Position numbers and translations under genes: made by a program. The notes beneath the pieces were generated by a model. The model worked only from the letters and a program-made list of their open reading frames with translations, did not search any database and was not told the DNA's origin. A stretch of 32,794 nucleotides of DNA from a virus. Shown here one piece after another: positions 8,013 through 16,556 of the stretch. The stretch is from positions 1-32,794 of the IMG/VR virus record IMGVR_UViG_3300021963_000417. One strand, given 5' to 3'. The stretch's first letter is position 1; every line of letters begins with the position of its first letter.

Positions 8013-11000
8013 ATGGCTGATATTGAATCCAACATTAAAGTAAATATAGATACGTCAGAGGCTCTGGCGCAACTAAAACTTTTACAGCAACAAATATCAG
8101 CCTTTCAACAAGCCATGCGAAATGCTGGTTCAGCAAACGCCAAGGCTGCTGCTGCAATGCAGCAAAATCTTGTAAATTCCATTAATGCTACTGGTAAATT
8201 CAGAGCAAACATTCAAACCATTAAAACAAGTGCAGAAACCTTTACTGAATCACTTGAAAAAAACAAAATGTCAATTGGCGAATATTTTCGCTATGCTGGT
8301 GGGGCATCTAAGACATTCGGAAAACTTTTTAAATCTGAATTTGCTGTAATTCAGCAGGTAGCAGAAGAGCGTGTAAAAGCGTTACAAACACAATTCATTA
8401 AACTTGGTCGTGATGCCAATGGTGCAATGAAGGCTATTGCTGTTAAGCCACTAGCACTAGATATGGATAGCCTTGCTGTAAAAACACAACTTGCAGCACA
8501 GCGTCAGCAGTTGTTTAATCAACTTATGAAACAGGGTTCTACCCAACTTCTAAACTTTGGTAAGAATACTCAGTGGGCAGGTCGCCAGTTGATGGTTGGT
8601 TTTACCATTCCACTAACAATGATGGGTGCTGCTGCTGCCAAAGCATACATGCAAATTGAGGCAGCCTCTATTAAATTTAAGCGTGTATATGGAGACATAA
8701 ACACTACAACTACAGAAACAAACAAGATGGTAAAGTCTGTTCAAGCACTTGCCAATGAGTTTACAAAATACGGTCTTGCTGTTGCAGACACTATGGAAAT
8801 GGCAGCCTCTGCTGCTGCAATGGGTAAAACAGGTGCGGACCTGCTTGCACAAATTGACCAAGCAGCAAAACTATCTATTCTTGGTGGTGTAGAACAGCAA
8901 CAGGCTCTTGAAACCACAATCTCTCTAACAAACGCATTTAGCGTGTCAACACAAGACTTGGCTAGAAACGTTGACTTTTTAAACGCAGTAGAAAACCAGA
9001 CCGTTGTAAGTATTGAAGACCTTACAATTGCAATTCCAAAAGCAGCACCTGTTGTTAAGCAACTTGGTGGAGATGTAAAAGACCTAGCATTCTTTCTAAC
9101 AGCAATGAAAGAAGGTGGCATTAACGCATCTGAGGGTGCTAACGCCCTAAAGTCTGGTCTTGCGTCTATGATTAACCCAACTGCAAAAGCATCTCAATTT
9201 TTGCAAAAGTTTGGAATTAATCTAAACGGTATTGTTGAGGCAAACAAGGGAGACGTTCGTGGAACAGTTGTTCAGTTTGCTAAAGCCCTAGACACACTTG
9301 ACCCACTAAACCGTGCTCGTGCAATTGAGCAATTGTTTGGTAAGTTTCAATTTTCACGTCTTTCTACACTATTCCAAAACGTAATTGCTGACGGTAGCCA
9401 AGCAACCAAGGTGGCACAACTAGCAAATCAAACAGCAGAAGAACTTGCAGTACTATCCGAACGAGAAATGAAAAAGGTTGAAAGTTCTCCTATGTTCAAG
9501 TTCCAGAAGTCTATTCAGGATATGCAAGCAAAACTTGCTCCAGTTGGTGAAGCATTCTTAAAAGCAGTAACACCAATTATTGAATTTGTTTCTAAAATCC
9601 TTGATGGATTTAATAATCTTAGCGAAGGCTCAAAACAGTTTGTAACAATTTTGGTAACTGCAGTTGCAGGTATTGGTCCTATTTTGCTAATGACATTTGG
9701 TCTTATCGCTAACGGCGTTGCTAACATTATGAAACTCTTTACCAATATGAAGTCTTTCATTAATAAAACAACCAAGCCATCAGAAATGCTAGGCGAACAG
9801 ACGGAATACATGAACACGGAACAACTCCGTGCTGCTGCCATTGCAGCATCTCTTGACCAAGCACACGCAAAATTAAAGCAGACCTTTGACTCTGAAAGAA
9901 TAGCGGTAGAGCAATTAACACAAGCATACAGAACAGCAGTTAATGCACAGCAAGCATATGCTGGAGTTCCAGGAGTGCCAGTTGGCAATCCAAATGCAAC
10001 ACCACCACAAAAATATGCAGGAGGTGTGCGTAGTGTTCCTGGTCCAAAGGGTGCAGGAGACATTGTTCCAGCACTTCTGTCTCCAGGTGAAGCAGTTATT
10101 CCAGCAAAACAAGCACAAAAATACGCACCAGTAATTCATGGCATGATTGCTGGAAATCTGCCAGGATTTGAAAAAGGAACTACTGGCGTTGGTCAAATGC
10201 GTCAAAGCATTGTTGGACCACTTACACAAAGACAAACAGAGGGTCTTGCTAGAACAGGCATGCAACTAGAAGATATCAGCAATGAAGTTCTCGCTGGTCC
10301 GTATGGCAAAGTTGCTCCTACAAACTATGGAACACAAATTTCACCAACTACAGGACACTCATTCCCTGCATTTGGCGTTGGCGGTATTTACCTAAAGCCA
10401 GATGGTACTAAGGTATTTGTAAAGCCACAAATGGACCTAACTTCTGCTATGGCAGAAATGCGTGGTACAGAGATTGCTCGTGGAGCACATGGACTACAAG
10501 CACCACAACAAAAGATTGGTGTGATGATGGACCCAACAGACCCACAGGGTCGCAGACGCTTCATCGTTCTTGAATCACCAGTTGACGAAAAATTTGCAAA
10601 TATTCCTACTTCATTTACAAAAGACCAATACTTTAAGCAATTGGTTGCTTCACTTCTTCGTGGAGACAAAGACCTTGGACTCGGAAATCTCGGTGGCGAT
10701 ATTCTTGCAGACGTTGGAACTGCTGGTGTATTCCAAAGGGCATCTGGAAAGCGTGAACTTGGTGGCAAGATTAACTCAATGGAAGAGCAAGCCATTATCA
10801 ATCTTCTTGGCGTAAAGGGTGGTGCTAAGAGATTCTTTGCTGAAGCAACGTCAGAGATTGCTAGCAGTATGTCACCATCCGAATATGATGCAGCAATGAA
10901 GGCTGAAATTCAGGCAGTTATGCCACGACTCCAAGCAACTATTGCTGGTTTTGGAAATATGAGTTCCGAAGAAAAGGCAGCATACCAAAACATGCTTATG

Positions 11001-14000
11001 CGTTTGCAATCTGGTATGTCTGTTGACTGGGGTAAATATCAGGTAATGCACTCAGCAGTGCCACCAAAGAAATATAAAGAGGGCACAGTTGCTGCAGGAT
11101 GGGAAAGTTTAACTGACACAAGGGGTCTTGGATGGCTAGATGCTTTAGGCATTAGCACAAAACGAGGAATTCAAAGGGCACACTTGCAAGATGAATTAAG
11201 TGTAGACGACCCAATGGTTTTAGATGCAATTCGTTCTGCATCAAAATCTAGTGTTAATGCATCACAACTTCAAGACTTTAAAGTTCTTGGCAATCTTACT
11301 GCAGATTTACCAGAATGGGTAAACCAAAAATTAATTCCAAGTAAGGGTGGAGTCCCATCTCCAATATTTATCAAGGCTTGGAACTCAATTAAAGGTAAAA
11401 TGCTTTCTTCAGCCAAGGCAGCAAGATTGGGTTCAGAAGTTGCTCCTGCTGTTCAAGAAATTGAAGACCAAATTGGTAGACAGACTGCCTCATTAGCATC
11501 TCAAATATTTGACCCAGAGTTGTCACAAGCAACTAGGAGTGTTCTTCTTGCAAATCAAAATCAGCCAGGAGAGTTGGGAGTTGTAGCAAATGCATTTGCA
11601 CGAAGAGCAGAACTTCCAGGAACACTAAGAGCAGATTTTGGTAAAAATGCTCACGACCAAATATTACTTGGATTACAACAGGGAAGGTATCAACTAACAC
11701 CTAGTGGCAAGGCTGTAATAATGGCTGGAACAAAAGGTCAGTCATTTAGAGTTGGAGAATTAAGAACTGGTGCATCAAGTTCAAGTCCAGAAGGTCTTAG
11801 GTATGCTGAAAAATGGGATGCCTGGGATAGAGCAGGTAGACCGCTAGATGAAAGAATGCCAACTATTAAGAGTGCTTCTGCTCCAAAGGGAATGTTCTCT
11901 GGTGCAAGACAAGAGCAGGAAAGTTATGAAGCAACAATGCCAATGTTTTCAAAGATTATGGATTTCAGCGTTTTCTTTGAAGATAGGTTTATGCGAAAAA
12001 ATGGTTATGCTTTAAATCCACAAACAAAAAGATATGAGCCAGTACAAAAATATGCAGATGGCGTTTTCTCAGTACCAGGACCAAAGGGTGCTGGTGATGT
12101 AGTTCCTGCAATGCTGTCACCAGGTGAGGCTGTAATTCCTGCAAAACAAGCACAAAGATATCAACCTCTTATTCAGCAAATGGTTCATGGCAATATTCCA
12201 GGGTATGAGGAAAGCAATGTTCCAAAACTCCCACCAATTCCAGGTGTTGCTGCACCAACTCCATATGTTGCACCAGAGCCTGGAAAAGCAGCAACCTTCC
12301 TTGATGGGATTAAAAATGCAGTTTCTTCAGGTGCTCAAAAACTAGGTGCAACAGTCGTTGAAAAATCAAAGTCAGCACTGGAAACAGCACTCGTTCCTTT
12401 TGTTAGATATATTACTAATGATGAAGTTACTCTTAAAGACGACAAGGGCACTACTAGATTTGATGCGGATACCAAGGAAAGTTTTGATGCAAAAGGCAAC
12501 ATTATTGCTAAAGAGCAGGTTGTAGAAAAAACAAGAGAAGTAACAGAAGCCGAACGTGTGGCGTACATGGAAGCACAACTACTTGGTGACCAAGAATATC
12601 AACAGGCACTTGAAAGAGTAAATAGACTAACAGAGATGCAAAACTACGGTCAGCAACTTACTGCCCAAGAGCAAGCGGAACTTGACCAAAAGCAAAGACT
12701 GTTGGATGAAAAGAGAAAGTATTACCGAGAAGCAGCATCAGTAGAGGCTGGTCAGGGTGGTGCTACTCCAGAAAAAAGAAGTTTGGTTCAAAGAGCCTTT
12801 ACAAGAAACAAGTTTACTGGAAGACTTCAGGGACTTGCTTATGGTGCTTCTGCTGTTGCTGGTGTAGCATCTACTATGGGTGGTAGTATTGGCGAGGCTG
12901 CCCAAGCAGCACTTCCGTCAATTGGTGCTTTTACAACAGCAATGTCAATGATTCCTGGTCCTGCTGGTGTTGCAGTTGGTGCACTTGCAGCAGTTGTTAC
13001 AATTTTCAATCAAATTCAAGAGCATCTCAAAAAGATGCGAGAAGAATCTTATAAACTTGCATCTGCAATGGGTGCTGGAAATCAGTCAATACAAAAGTTT
13101 GCGGAATTTGCAAAAACAGTTTCTGCTACAGAAATAATGAACAAGAGACGAGAAGCCAGTGCTGGACAGTTCTTTAATGTTGTAGAAGGAAAGAAAACAT
13201 TTGGCGAGTCTTATATGGAAACAGATGCAGGTAAGCAACTGCTAAAAGACATTAATGATTCTGTTAAGCAAAGTGGTGGCGAATTAAGTCAGGCAAAGGC
13301 ATTAATCACACAACAACTTTCTGCTGCTATCGCTGCAGGAGTTATGACCACAGCACAGGCAAGAAGCATTGCAGCAAATCTAGGAAAACAACTTAAGAGC
13401 ACTGACTTTGGACTAACTGTAACTGCAAACATTACCAATATCTTTGGTCCAAATGGAGAAAATCTAAAAGAAAATCCACTAGAAGTTACTATGTCAGTAT
13501 CTAAAAAGTCTGCCACTATATTTAAAGATTTTGCAGAAATGGCTTCGGAAAACTTCTCTAGAGGTTTCGGTGAGGCTGAAAAGATTGGTGGCTCTATGGC
13601 TGCACAACTACAATCAATGCTTGATGTGCAACAACAAATGGTTGACTCACTACAGGTTATTTATGAAAAGAGAATTGCAAGTGCTCGAAAAGCAGGGGAT
13701 GAAGCAAAAGCAATTGACCTACAAAACCAGTTACTAATAGAACAACAAAAACTACTTAATTCAAATAAGGCAGCAGCAACTTCGGCATTTGCAGACCTAA
13801 AGGCTTTAGACCCATCGCTTATTGGTCAGTTTAAAGAAGCGTCTATCGGAAGCATTGAAAGTGCTTATAAGGGCACTGGTATGGAAGGTTATGCCTCTAT
13901 TGCCAAAGACCAAATTAATGCTATGCAGGGAACAGACGCAGAAAAAGGTTATTTTGCATCACTTGTTGGCTCTAAAACAATTGGTTTGCCACAAGTTGGA

Positions 14001-16556
14001 ATTGCTAGCGAAATGTTTGGAGACACCAAAGAAGGTGCAACTAAACTTAATGACATGCTACTAAATATTGGTGGCGTTGAAACAAATAGGGCACTAGGTT
14101 TGACACAGATGATGTCTGGAGAGACTAAAAAGAAATTCATGCTTGAAATTGGTGTTGCTGACCCTGCCAAAGCCAAAGCAATGAATGATGCACTAGAACT
14201 TGTTCAAAAAACAACTGGACCATTTGCCGATGACGATGTAATGAAAACAGCAATTATGAACTTTGCTGTAAAGAATGCAGACAAGGTTGCCGATGCTAAA
14301 AAGAATATTGATGCATTGCAGGGTTTGAGTGGTCAAAAGATTACAGTTGCTGTAACCACTGGCTCCCTATTTGACAAAAATACTCAGGCTGCAATTAAGA
14401 AAGACATTAAGAGATTTAATAAATATAATGACGCAGGTAAGATTACCTATACGACAGAACTACAGCAAATTATGAAAATGTCTGGCGATAAAGATATGAT
14501 TAATGCGTTTAAACTTTGGAGAACTGAACAGGGAGACCCAACACTAACATTCCAAGACTATGCAATTTATCAGGCAGACAGAACTGTTCGTGAATCTGGA
14601 ATTGACCAAACTACTGGTCCTGGCTCACAACAAGAACAACAGGCAGCAGCAATTGAGCCATCTGTATTGGACCAGTTTGTTCAGATGCTTAGAGAGGGTT
14701 CTAACTGGCAACAGAAACTAACTGTTGGTTGGAATGCATCATACAAGGCTTTGAAGAATTATACAGAAAAAGCAATCTTTACAATGGGTGGTTTTGCGGT
14801 AATGCTGAAAAACCAAGGTGTAGATTCAAACATTATTGATATTTTTATGGGAGCAACGGAAGAAGAGCAAAATAAGATTCTTGACCGTAGAACTGGAAAA
14901 CTTAAGGTAGGGGCACTATCGCTTCTTAAAGAACTTAAGAAAATTAAAGATATGCGTGAGTTTGGACTAGCCTATGTTTTGGCAAGCCCAATGGAAAGAT
15001 TAGAAAAAGATAATCAACTTTATCAGGCTGGTCTTGACTTAATTTCTGAAAAAGAAAAGGGTATTAATAAAAAATATGAAGAAAGAATAAAGGCTCTTGA
15101 CGAAATTGGTAAGATTCAAGAAAAGAATAATCAAAGACAAAAAGATACATTAGACTTGGCAGACGCTCTTTCAAAGGGTGATATTGCTGCTGCTGCTCGT
15201 GCTGCATTAGCAGCAAGACAAAATAGCCAGAAGCAAGCACTAGATGATGCAAAATCTTCACTTGAACTTGCTAGAAAGAGTGAACTTGACAGTATTGAGG
15301 TTAACATCCTTGGCTCAACTCAAAAGCGTTCTGACCTAGAAGCACTAATTGCCACAAACTCTGAAAAGATTGCTGGATATAAACTAGATGAAGCAAACCG
15401 TCAGGCAGAGATTGCAAGGGATGCCTTGGCTGCTTCAAAGCATGTTGCTCAAATGCTTAAAGACGGAAAAGCCTTGTCTATGTTGCCAGGATATAATGCA
15501 ACTGGCAATCCAGGTGGAAATCCAACAACTGACCCATATGCTGATTCAAAAAAGTCTAACATTGGAAAAGTAGGTTTTGATGCTAAAGGTAATGCTGTTG
15601 CAAATCAATATTCTGCTGGCGTTGGTGCTGCGTATCTTGGTCAATCTGGAATGACATCGGCATGGGACTTTAAAAACAAAAAGTGGACTGTTGTAAAGAG
15701 AGACCCAAATGAAGGTAAAGAAGGATACGTTCAAGACGAAAAAACTCCAGGTAAGTACATTCCAGTTGCACAGTCTGGTAAAAAAATGGGGCAATATCAG
15801 TATGCCACAAAAGAGGCAGCAGCCAAAACTCTAAAGTCTGGAGAAAAGGTAGAATGGATATATAATAAAGAAACAAACTTTGGATACTTTCAGACCACTA
15901 GGGCAGACAGTGGTTCAAAAGAAAATCCAACCATGCTTCAAATTCCATCAGATGGTTCAAGTTTTGACAAGCCAACAGTTGCTAGTATTGAAAAAGGAAA
16001 ATATTTCTCTATACCAAAGAATTCTTTTGTTTATGGAGTAATTAAAGATGGAAATAAGTACAAAATTAGTTATGGTCTTAAAGACCCAGGATATGGAGAA
16101 GCAGGTAAAAACTTAAAGTCAACTGGTAAGGGATTGCTGGCAGATGATAGCATTTCTCAGGTTGGTGGAAACCAACTTAACTATAAATACTATGACCAGG
16201 TTGCTGGAATGGACCAGTGGACAAGTGGATACTTCCCAATTAAACAATTTGCTCGTGGTGGTATGGTATATGCAAGTCGTGGAATTGAAGTAGAAAGTAG
16301 CAAATATGCTCTTGGAACAGACACCATCCCTGCTATGCTTACCCCAGGAGAATTCGTTATGAAAAAGGCTGCGGTAGATAGAATTGGTGCTGAAACCCTA
16401 AGTGCCATGAATGATGGCACATCTTCAAGCGAATCAGTGTATAATTATAGTATTACAGTAAATGCCAACTCTTCGGATGCAAGCGGTATTGCAGATGCAG
16501 TTCTTAGAGAAATCAAGAGAGTTGACTCACAAAGGATTAGGAGCAGTACAATTTAA
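8013..16556 (+). CDS. Tape measure protein (2,847 residues)
   Basis: The largest gene. It sets tail length and is ejected with the DNA. At about 1.5 angstrom per residue an unmodified tape of this length would imply a tail near 430 nm, but inserted globular domains probably shorten that. The N-terminal part (about 160-600) has the TP901-type core (GFTIPLTMMGAAAAKAY, then repeated DxAxxVDFLNAVENQT-like segments). Hydrophobic stretches at about 543-577 and 1626-1668 may be membrane-spanning. A cassette with P-A-x-L-S-P-G-E-A-V-I occurs at about 664-722 and 1343-1400, with a diverged third copy at about 2764. Between the first two lies a kinase-like segment (about 787-990) and an unidentified region to 1340. 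A coiled coil covers about 2330-2490, and the C-terminus (YNYSITVNANSSDASGIAD) is typical of tape measures. No strong ribosome binding site precedes the ATG. Confidence 0.9.
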   Translation: MADIESNIKVNIDTSEALAQLKLLQQQISAFQQAMRNAGSANAKAAAAMQQNLVNSINATGKFRANIQTIKTSAETFTESLEKNKMSIGEYFRYAGGASKTFGKLFKSEFAVIQQVAEERVKALQTQFIKLGRDANGAMKAIAVKPLALDMDSLAVKTQLAAQRQQLFNQLMKQGSTQLLNFGKNTQWAGRQLMVGFTIPLTMMGAAAAKAYMQIEAASIKFKRVYGDINTTTTETNKMVKSVQALANEFTKYGLAVADTMEMAASAAAMGKTGADLLAQIDQAAKLSILGGVEQQQALETTISLTNAFSVSTQDLARNVDFLNAVENQTVVSIEDLTIAIPKAAPVVKQLGGDVKDLAFFLTAMKEGGINASEGANALKSGLASMINPTAKASQFLQKFGINLNGIVEANKGDVRGTVVQFAKALDTLDPLNRARAIEQLFGKFQFSRLSTLFQNVIADGSQATKVAQLANQTAEELAVLSEREMKKVESSPMFKFQKSIQDMQAKLAPVGEAFLKAVTPIIEFVSKILDGFNNLSEGSKQFVTILVTAVAGIGPILLMTFGLIANGVANIMKLFTNMKSFINKTTKPSEMLGEQTEYMNTEQLRAAAIAASLDQAHAKLKQTFDSERIAVEQLTQAYRTAVNAQQAYAGVPGVPVGNPNATPPQKYAGGVRSVPGPKGAGDIVPALLSPGEAVIPAKQAQKYAPVIHGMIAGNLPGFEKGTTGVGQMRQSIVGPLTQRQTEGLARTGMQLEDISNEVLAGPYGKVAPTNYGTQISPTTGHSFPAFGVGGIYLKPDGTKVFVKPQMDLTSAMAEMRGTEIARGAHGLQAPQQKIGVMMDPTDPQGRRRFIVLESPVDEKFANIPTSFTKDQYFKQLVASLLRGDKDLGLGNLGGDILADVGTAGVFQRASGKRELGGKINSMEEQAIINLLGVKGGAKRFFAEATSEIASSMSPSEYDAAMKAEIQAVMPRLQATIAGFGNMSSEEKAAYQNMLMRLQSGMSVDWGKYQVMHSAVPPKKYKEGTVAAGWESLTDTRGLGWLDALGISTKRGIQRAHLQDELSVDDPMVLDAIRSASKSSVNASQLQDFKVLGNLTADLPEWVNQKLIPSKGGVPSPIFIKAWNSIKGKMLSSAKAARLGSEVAPAVQEIEDQIGRQTASLASQIFDPELSQATRSVLLANQNQPGELGVVANAFARRAELPGTLRADFGKNAHDQILLGLQQGRYQLTPSGKAVIMAGTKGQSFRVGELRTGASSSSPEGLRYAEKWDAWDRAGRPLDERMPTIKSASAPKGMFSGARQEQESYEATMPMFSKIMDFSVFFEDRFMRKNGYALNPQTKRYEPVQKYADGVFSVPGPKGAGDVVPAMLSPGEAVIPAKQAQRYQPLIQQMVHGNIPGYEESNVPKLPPIPGVAAPTPYVAPEPGKAATFLDGIKNAVSSGAQKLGATVVEKSKSALETALVPFVRYITNDEVTLKDDKGTTRFDADTKESFDAKGNIIAKEQVVEKTREVTEAERVAYMEAQLLGDQEYQQALERVNRLTEMQNYGQQLTAQEQAELDQKQRLLDEKRKYYREAASVEAGQGGATPEKRSLVQRAFTRNKFTGRLQGLAYGASAVAGVASTMGGSIGEAAQAALPSIGAFTTAMSMIPGPAGVAVGALAAVVTIFNQIQEHLKKMREESYKLASAMGAGNQSIQKFAEFAKTVSATEIMNKRREASAGQFFNVVEGKKTFGESYMETDAGKQLLKDINDSVKQSGGELSQAKALITQQLSAAIAAGVMTTAQARSIAANLGKQLKSTDFGLTVTANITNIFGPNGENLKENPLEVTMSVSKKSATIFKDFAEMASENFSRGFGEAEKIGGSMAAQLQSMLDVQQQMVDSLQVIYEKRIASARKAGDEAKAIDLQNQLLIEQQKLLNSNKAAATSAFADLKALDPSLIGQFKEASIGSIESAYKGTGMEGYASIAKDQINAMQGTDAEKGYFASLVGSKTIGLPQVGIASEMFGDTKEGATKLNDMLLNIGGVETNRALGLTQMMSGETKKKFMLEIGVADPAKAKAMNDALELVQKTTGPFADDDVMKTAIMNFAVKNADKVADAKKNIDALQGLSGQKITVAVTTGSLFDKNTQAAIKKDIKRFNKYNDAGKITYTTELQQIMKMSGDKDMINAFKLWRTEQGDPTLTFQDYAIYQADRTVRESGIDQTTGPGSQQEQQAAAIEPSVLDQFVQMLREGSNWQQKLTVGWNASYKALKNYTEKAIFTMGGFAVMLKNQGVDSNIIDIFMGATEEEQNKILDRRTGKLKVGALSLLKELKKIKDMREFGLAYVLASPMERLEKDNQLYQAGLDLISEKEKGINKKYEERIKALDEIGKIQEKNNQRQKDTLDLADALSKGDIAAAARAALAARQNSQKQALDDAKSSLELARKSELDSIEVNILGSTQKRSDLEALIATNSEKIAGYKLDEANRQAEIARDALAASKHVAQMLKDGKALSMLPGYNATGNPGGNPTTDPYADSKKSNIGKVGFDAKGNAVANQYSAGVGAAYLGQSGMTSAWDFKNKKWTVVKRDPNEGKEGYVQDEKTPGKYIPVAQSGKKMGQYQYATKEAAAKTLKSGEKVEWIYNKETNFGYFQTTRADSGSKENPTMLQIPSDGSSFDKPTVASIEKGKYFSIPKNSFVYGVIKDGNKYKISYGLKDPGYGEAGKNLKSTGKGLLADDSISQVGGNQLNYKYYDQVAGMDQWTSGYFPIKQFARGGMVYASRGIEVESSKYALGTDTIPAMLTPGEFVMKKAAVDRIGAETLSAMNDGTSSSESVYNYSITVNANSSDASGIADAVLREIKRVDSQRIRSSTI
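10002..10176 (+). repeat. PGE cassette, copy 1 (inside the tape measure gene)
   Basis: Encodes about 58 residues beginning PPQKYAGGV and including SVPGPKGAGD, then LSPGEAVIPAKQAQ and GNLPGF. It matches copy 2 at about 70% of residues, so it is a duplicated unit. It sits just before the kinase-like segment. Confidence 0.85.
10371..10980 (+). other. Putative kinase-fold (HipA/PI3K-like) segment in the tape measure
   Basis: Residues about 787-990 show a kinase-like order: a beta pair ending in VFVKP with K804; a following helix with E815 or E820 (AEMRGTEIAR); a strand-hinge pair (RRRFIVLESPV); then D887-K-D-L-G-L-G-N892-like spacing with an ADVG motif (D900, G902). The D-to-N spacing of five matches the catalytic loop of protein and lipid kinases, but the D900 motif is closer than usual. 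Helices follow. This is recognition by eye, not a profile match, and activity is unproven. Confidence 0.4.
12039..12215 (+). repeat. PGE cassette, copy 2 (inside the tape measure gene)
   Basis: Encodes a second copy of the cassette (PVQKYADGV, SVPGPKGAGD, LSPGEAVIPAKQAQ, GNIPGY). Copies 1 and 2 bracket a segment of about 620 residues with unrelated sequence. DNA identity is lower than protein identity, so the duplication is old or kept by selection. Confidence 0.85.
16302..16425 (+). repeat. PGE-like cassette, diverged copy 3 (end of the tape measure gene)
   Basis: Encodes KYALGTDTIPAMLTPGEFV and a following helix ending AMNDG. It shares the D-x-x-P-A-M-L-x-P-G-E-x-V core with copies 1 and 2, which is a common motif near tape measure C-termini. 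Confidence 0.7.

Follow-up and report, generated by a model that had tools for sequence, protein, structure and literature searches.

A Predicted Kinase-Fold Domain Carried within a Phage Tape Measure Protein

Introduction

The tape measure protein (TMP) sets the length of the phage tail and is usually pushed hostward in infection. The enzymatic domains that we know of in TMPs, as a rule, attack the cell wall. A TMP encoded on a viral record of 32,794 bases (IMG/VR record IMGVR_UViG_3300021963_000417, analyzed over its full length and called the window here) raises the question of whether such a protein can also carry a kinase and, if so, in which cell that kinase would act. The original prediction had placed a possible kinase-fold domain at TMP residues 787 to 990, which do correspond to window positions 10371 to 10980, and had likened it to HipA and to the PI3/PI4 kinases.

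Results

The gene encodes a long protein within a tail gene cluster and was identified as a TMP by its matches to the PhageMin_Tail (E value of 1.6e-25), TIGR01760 (8e-31), and PHROG tape measure (1.7e-99) models. Its front part is common to Streptomyces phages and to relatives whose TMPs lack a kinase. Three copies of a repeat of the PGPKGAGD-VPAxLSPGEAVIP type are present in the window TMP, and the first two flank a variable stretch, the cargo slot. The main features of the gene are as follows.

8013..16556, + strand: TMP gene, 2847 amino acids (aa), with PhageMin_Tail, TIGR01760, and PHROG tape measure matches
8013..10082, + strand: conserved TMP front part, aa 1-690, from tblastn with 355 phage records and comparison with kinase-less TMPs
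9999..10208, + strand: first repeat, aa 663-732, bordering the cargo slot upstream, where homology to kinase-less TMPs mostly ends
10278..11048, + strand: kinase-like domain, aa 756-1012, from the AlphaFold2 model, Foldseek kinase matches, and a conserved family
11160..12002, + strand: post-kinase region, aa about 1050-1330, with 28-41% identity between relatives
12036..12245, + strand: second repeat, aa 1342-1411, bordering the cargo slot downstream
16260..16469, + strand: third, more divergent repeat copy, aa 2750-2819

The kinase-like domain was modeled with AlphaFold2 from 53 non-redundant relatives, giving a pLDDT of 88.7 and a pTM of 0.89. The model runs through three strands, helix C, two strands, a hinge, a helix, the catalytic loop, and a helical C-lobe. 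In the numbering of the modeled domain, these elements are strands 19-23, 36-39, and 45-51 (bearing K804), helix 54-69 (bearing E815), strands 79-84 and 94-101, the hinge, and helix 115-128. The lowest confidence within the core, a pLDDT of about 70-87, falls after the N892-D900 stretch. The features of the protein kinase-like superfamily were thus found in the model and its alignment, namely, an N-lobe sheet with helix C, a hinge, a helical C-lobe, and conserved Lys, Glu, Asp, Asn, and metal Asp residues. The predicted active-site elements map to the window as follows.

10422..10424, + strand: K804 in VFVKP, the predicted strand-3 lysine contacting the ATP phosphates, invariant in 89/89 sequences
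10455..10457, + strand: E815, the predicted helix-C glutamate and partner of K804, invariant in 89/89
10548..10580, + strand: RRRFIVLESPV, aa 846-856, strand 5 and hinge, a strand followed by a hinge in the AlphaFold2 model
10662..10688, + strand: catalytic loop GDKDLGLGN, aa 884-892, with D885, D887 (the predicted base), and N892, all three invariant in 89/89
10710..10718, + strand: D900-V-G902, with the predicted metal-binding (DFG-like) aspartate; D900 and G902 invariant in 89/89

When the model was compared with the PDB using Foldseek, all of the recognizable top matches were proteins with a kinase fold (LepB, CtkA, JNK, HipA, PI4K, Vps34, and Rio1). The E values were 1.0e-3 for the N-terminal part of LepB, 3.2e-3 for CtkA, 7.8e-3 for HipA, and 9.2e-3 for PI4KIIIb, with Vps34, PI4KIIb, and RioK1 also matched; these scores are modest, the best E value being 1e-3 and the TM-scores 0.2-0.4. 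Against the viral models of BFVD, there were eleven matches at an E value of ≤1e-3, and those with names included two ADP-ribosyltransferases, an HK97-type portal protein, a PI3/4-kinase-type phage protein, and proteins of phage GodonK and the haloarchaeal virus HHTV-1. Coordinates and length identify the latter two as GodonK gene 67, which adjoins the portal gene, and HHTV-1 gene 13. A shallow AlphaFold model built from 16 sequences (pLDDT of 63) had given kinase matches at E values of 0.03 or worse and is superseded by the 53-sequence model. With the predicted fold and the structural matches in agreement, it is nearly certain that TMP aa 756-1012 adopts a kinase fold, a slightly larger extent than had been proposed.

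The 53 non-redundant relatives of the domain are 44-88% identical to the window sequence, and K804, E815, D885, D887, N892, D900, and G902 are the same in every one of them. A further 36 sequences had been recruited by the TMP front part rather than by the kinase, and all 36 keep the seven residues, so that the pattern is not an artifact of motif-based searching. The original prediction had named K804, E815, E820, D887, N892, D900, and the RRRFIVLESP segment, and each was present at the place given. It had left the helix-C glutamate as E815 or E820; the choice falls on E815, since position 820 varies (E/T/Q/V) among the relatives. A single D-x4-N match means little, as it could arise by chance; the full residue pattern, judged from these alignments, is not a chance one. 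The stretch from N892 to D900 is only 8 residues long, shorter than in HipA or PI3K.

Selection on the domain was compared with that on the rest of the TMP in seven relatives. Identity to these is 75-88% in the kinase domain, with dN/dS values of 0.11-0.22, and the TMP front part gave dN/dS values of 0.09-0.17. Judged from these ratios, purifying selection on the kinase domain equals that on the TMP core. The rear part of the TMP is 40-55% identical in the same relatives, and the post-kinase region is fast diverging, at 28-41% identity. No family match was obtained for this latter region (window 11160-12002).

At the level of sequence models, the domain stands apart from the named kinase families. 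It had no match among Pfam, PHROG, NCBIfam, or PADLOC models, and no Pfam kinase match was obtained with any of 16 domain members. The HipA family HMMs (PF07804 and PF20613) did not match, PF07804 being absent from the record in a search that detected its controls, and the PI3/PI4 kinase HMM (PF00454) likewise did not match the domain. The proposed likeness to HipA and the PI3/PI4 kinases thus stands at the level of the fold and does not extend to the HipA_C and PI3_PI4_kinase sequence models. The domain profile gave only chance matches to PDB chain sequences. An alignment of active sites with E. coli HipA was sought directly, and hhalign returned an E value of 0.13 with the wrong region aligned.

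Profile comparison was more telling with kinases of other phages. A profile of nine phage HipA-like kinases matched the domain profile with a P value of 7e-5 and a score of 38.7; 200 column shuffles gave a maximum of 28.5 and a mean of 14.8, and the reversed profile gave 12.3. The significant part of this match is the N-lobe (GG-Y-kPDG-VKP...AE); when the two profiles are aligned less strictly, the alignment runs on through D887, N892, and D900. Of 58 viral and E. coli proteins tested with the domain profile, HHTV-1 gene 13 came out on top, and direct profile comparison aligned the two active sites, with AS-L-G-D-x4-N common to both. The corresponding comparison with HSTV-2 gene 16 gave no active-site alignment and no meaningful match. 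By sequence, then, the domain is closest to HipA-like kinases of isolated phages, where they form part of large proteins that are portal-adjacent or ADP-ribosyltransferases.

These HipA-like kinases come from Gordonia phages GodonK, Mareelih, and Sixama, Pseudomonas phage Dolphis, and Actinomycetia phage DSL-LC01. Their strand-3 Lys, helix-C Glu, catalytic Asp, Asn, and D-x-G segment align with those of the window domain. They differ in having about 13 residues between the Asn and the metal Asp, compared with 8 in the window domain, and in that two of the nine weakly touch the Pfam HipA_2 model, which none of the window-type domains does. They also sit in large phage proteins, several of which adjoin the portal gene, whereas the window kinase is in the TMP. 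In the lake phage DSL-LC01, the related kinase is in a 3289-aa head-cluster protein and the TMP is a separate gene, so that placement in the TMP is what sets the window apart.

The tailed viruses HHTV-1 and HSTV-2 infect haloarchaea, and their genes 13 and 16, respectively, encode proteins with a kinase fold like that of the window domain. They lie in the head gene region, not in a TMP, and have no close sequence identity to the window domain. Both (HSTV-2, L219:10647-12119; HHTV-1, L220:9436-12738) are recorded as hypothetical only, and close relatives of HSTV-2 gene 16 are annotated as phosphatidylinositol kinase. Among cellular proteins, E. coli HipA has a similar general fold by structure search, and its HipA_C match is absent from the window domain. 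The fold is likewise similar in PI4KIIIb, Vps34, PI4KIIb, CtkA, and the N-terminal part of LepB; compared with the PI3/PI4 kinases, CtkA, and LepB, the window domain has no PI3_PI4_kinase Pfam match and a shorter loop between its catalytic and metal-binding residues.

Kinase domains in phage proteins with predicted delivery are already known, but they are of another family than the window domain. The kinase domain of polyvalent proteins occurs in phage proteins that are predicted to be delivered with the DNA (Iyer et al. 2017, PMC5512222). That domain has lost the C-lobe and kept a catalytic His with an insert, and the paper mentions no TMP (PMC5512222). The window domain, unlike it, retains a C-lobe, which is helical, and its catalytic loop contains no such His; membership in the polyvalent kinase family was ruled out on these defining features (PMC5512222). 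The literature searched, which lay mostly outside subscription journals, yielded no description of a TMP with a kinase.

Environmental viral contigs commonly carry the domain, which was matched in 153 and 162 of them in two overlapping scans, and its location was the TMP in the relatives examined. It was not found in 50,697 phage records, nor was the kinase found in 84,980 species genomes, the nearest TMP in the latter being without it. The kinase is likewise missing from Streptomyces phage TMPs whose front part is similar. A phage TMP that is 36% identical to the window front part and has no kinase was observed in a metagenome-assembled genome labeled as a cyanobacterium (L232).

Even among close relatives, the domain comes and goes. 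We compared 70 related TMPs with front parts 64-88% identical to that of the window and long enough to cover the slot; the kinase is present in 38 and absent from 32. An unfiltered HMM search of 26 kinase-less TMPs detected no kinase (best E value of 0.12). In these 26, homology to the window TMP mostly ends near aa 727, within or just past the first repeat, and mostly restarts at the second repeat, from aa ∼1345 onward. Rows produced by the isolated kinase fragment, a second query in the BLAST comparisons, were set aside. These breakpoints indicate that the kinase domain is an optional content of the TMP cargo slot between the two repeats. The kinase begins farther along the TMP in some relatives, at aa 1000-1400 compared with about 755 in the window, so that other inserts can precede it. 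Other unrecognized sequence occupies the slot in the kinase-less TMPs of L238, L239, L244, L262, L291, and L302.

A second enzyme-like domain is found in the same slot in some relatives. Downstream of the kinase, 15 of 107 distinct kinase-bearing TMPs have a HAD-type phosphatase domain, recognized by PF03767 (E values down to 3e-18) and by DxDDT and further HAD-like motifs, and the other 92 do not. In some related TMPs it lies at the end of the post-kinase region; it spans aa 1356-1574 in L079, aa 1432-1644 in L008, and aa 1337-1529 in L009. The HAD domain of one relative has a weak resemblance to the PNKP phosphatase. For the window TMP, a forced alignment hinted at a HAD remnant, which HMM search did not support.

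Discussion

The model and the alignments describe a complete protein kinase-like domain of the HipA/PI3-PI4-kinase type with an intact predicted catalytic apparatus. The structure prediction that had been proposed as a check returned the order of N-lobe and C-lobe expected of a kinase, with HipA and PI3/PI4 kinases among the folds matched; the conservation check found K804, D887, N892, and D900 invariant; and profile-profile comparison linked the domain to HipA-like kinases of other phages and failed to align the active sites of E. coli HipA. From the conserved residues, we consider the domain likely to be an active enzyme. In such an enzyme, K804 and E815 would serve ATP, D887 would act as the base, and N892 and D900 would bind metal.

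A kinase needs ATP and so must act in a cytoplasm, that of either the newly infected or the producing cell. We favor the newly infected cell, given the optional, cargo-like distribution of the domain and the occurrence of its relatives in large phage proteins thought to be delivered along with the DNA. The best overall explanation, and in our judgment a probable one, is that the tail ferries an active kinase as cargo and that this enzyme, once ejected, modifies a host target. The domain would be carried in the tail as part of the TMP, would enter the host with it at DNA ejection, and would then fold or refold there; early in infection, it would phosphorylate or, less likely, AMPylate a host molecule. 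The lumen of a tail tube measures roughly 4 nm, and a globular domain of ∼28 kDa hardly fits there in folded form and thus would need to pass unfolded. That the domain reaches the cytoplasm and acts on a host target there is, taken by itself, somewhat better than an even proposition. Such early action would be in keeping with what has been predicted for large phage proteins delivered with the DNA.

The narrow tail tube can also be read as favoring action before ejection. An active kinase in the producing cell might phosphorylate the TMP, its chaperones, or tail-tube proteins and so time tail assembly, and the TMP is indeed synthesized and folded in a cytoplasm containing ATP, where a kinase that would probably not fit the tube when folded could still work. 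We regard this as unlikely, however, because 32 of the 70 related TMPs and those of the Streptomyces phages do not have the domain. The kinase-less relatives have complete TMPs, and so building such tails does not require the domain, and relatives of the domain occur in other, non-tail proteins. The substrate might also be something other than protein, with the enzyme transferring AMP or phosphorylating a small molecule, a lipid, or a nucleic acid end, perhaps together with the HAD phosphatase of sister TMPs. The lipid kinases PI4K and Vps34 among the fold matches and the weak PNKP likeness of one co-resident HAD domain point this way, but no substrate-specific feature was found and the HAD domain is missing from 92 of the 107 kinase-bearing TMPs and from the window, which makes the idea distinctly unlikely. 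A pseudokinase or purely structural domain, with the fold serving as a tail plug, spacer, or binding module, would suit the short N892-D900 loop and the lack of a known family match but is quite improbable, since such proteins usually lose catalytic positions and here the predicted ones are invariant in 89/89 sequences though many other columns vary.

Returning to the kinase as cargo for the newly infected cell, the arrangement of the slot tentatively suggests a more general scheme, to which we give slightly less than even weight. In long-tailed phages, the TMP may serve as a carrier whose cargo slot is exchangeable, and the kinase, sometimes with the HAD phosphatase, may be threaded through the tail and enter the host as an early effector pair. 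Genomes with and without the domain between the flanking repeats can serve as natural controls, and simple point mutants are available at the invariant residues. If the kinase is active, then either the TMP can deliver a host-modifying enzyme or it regulates assembly, and either would change the view of the TMP.
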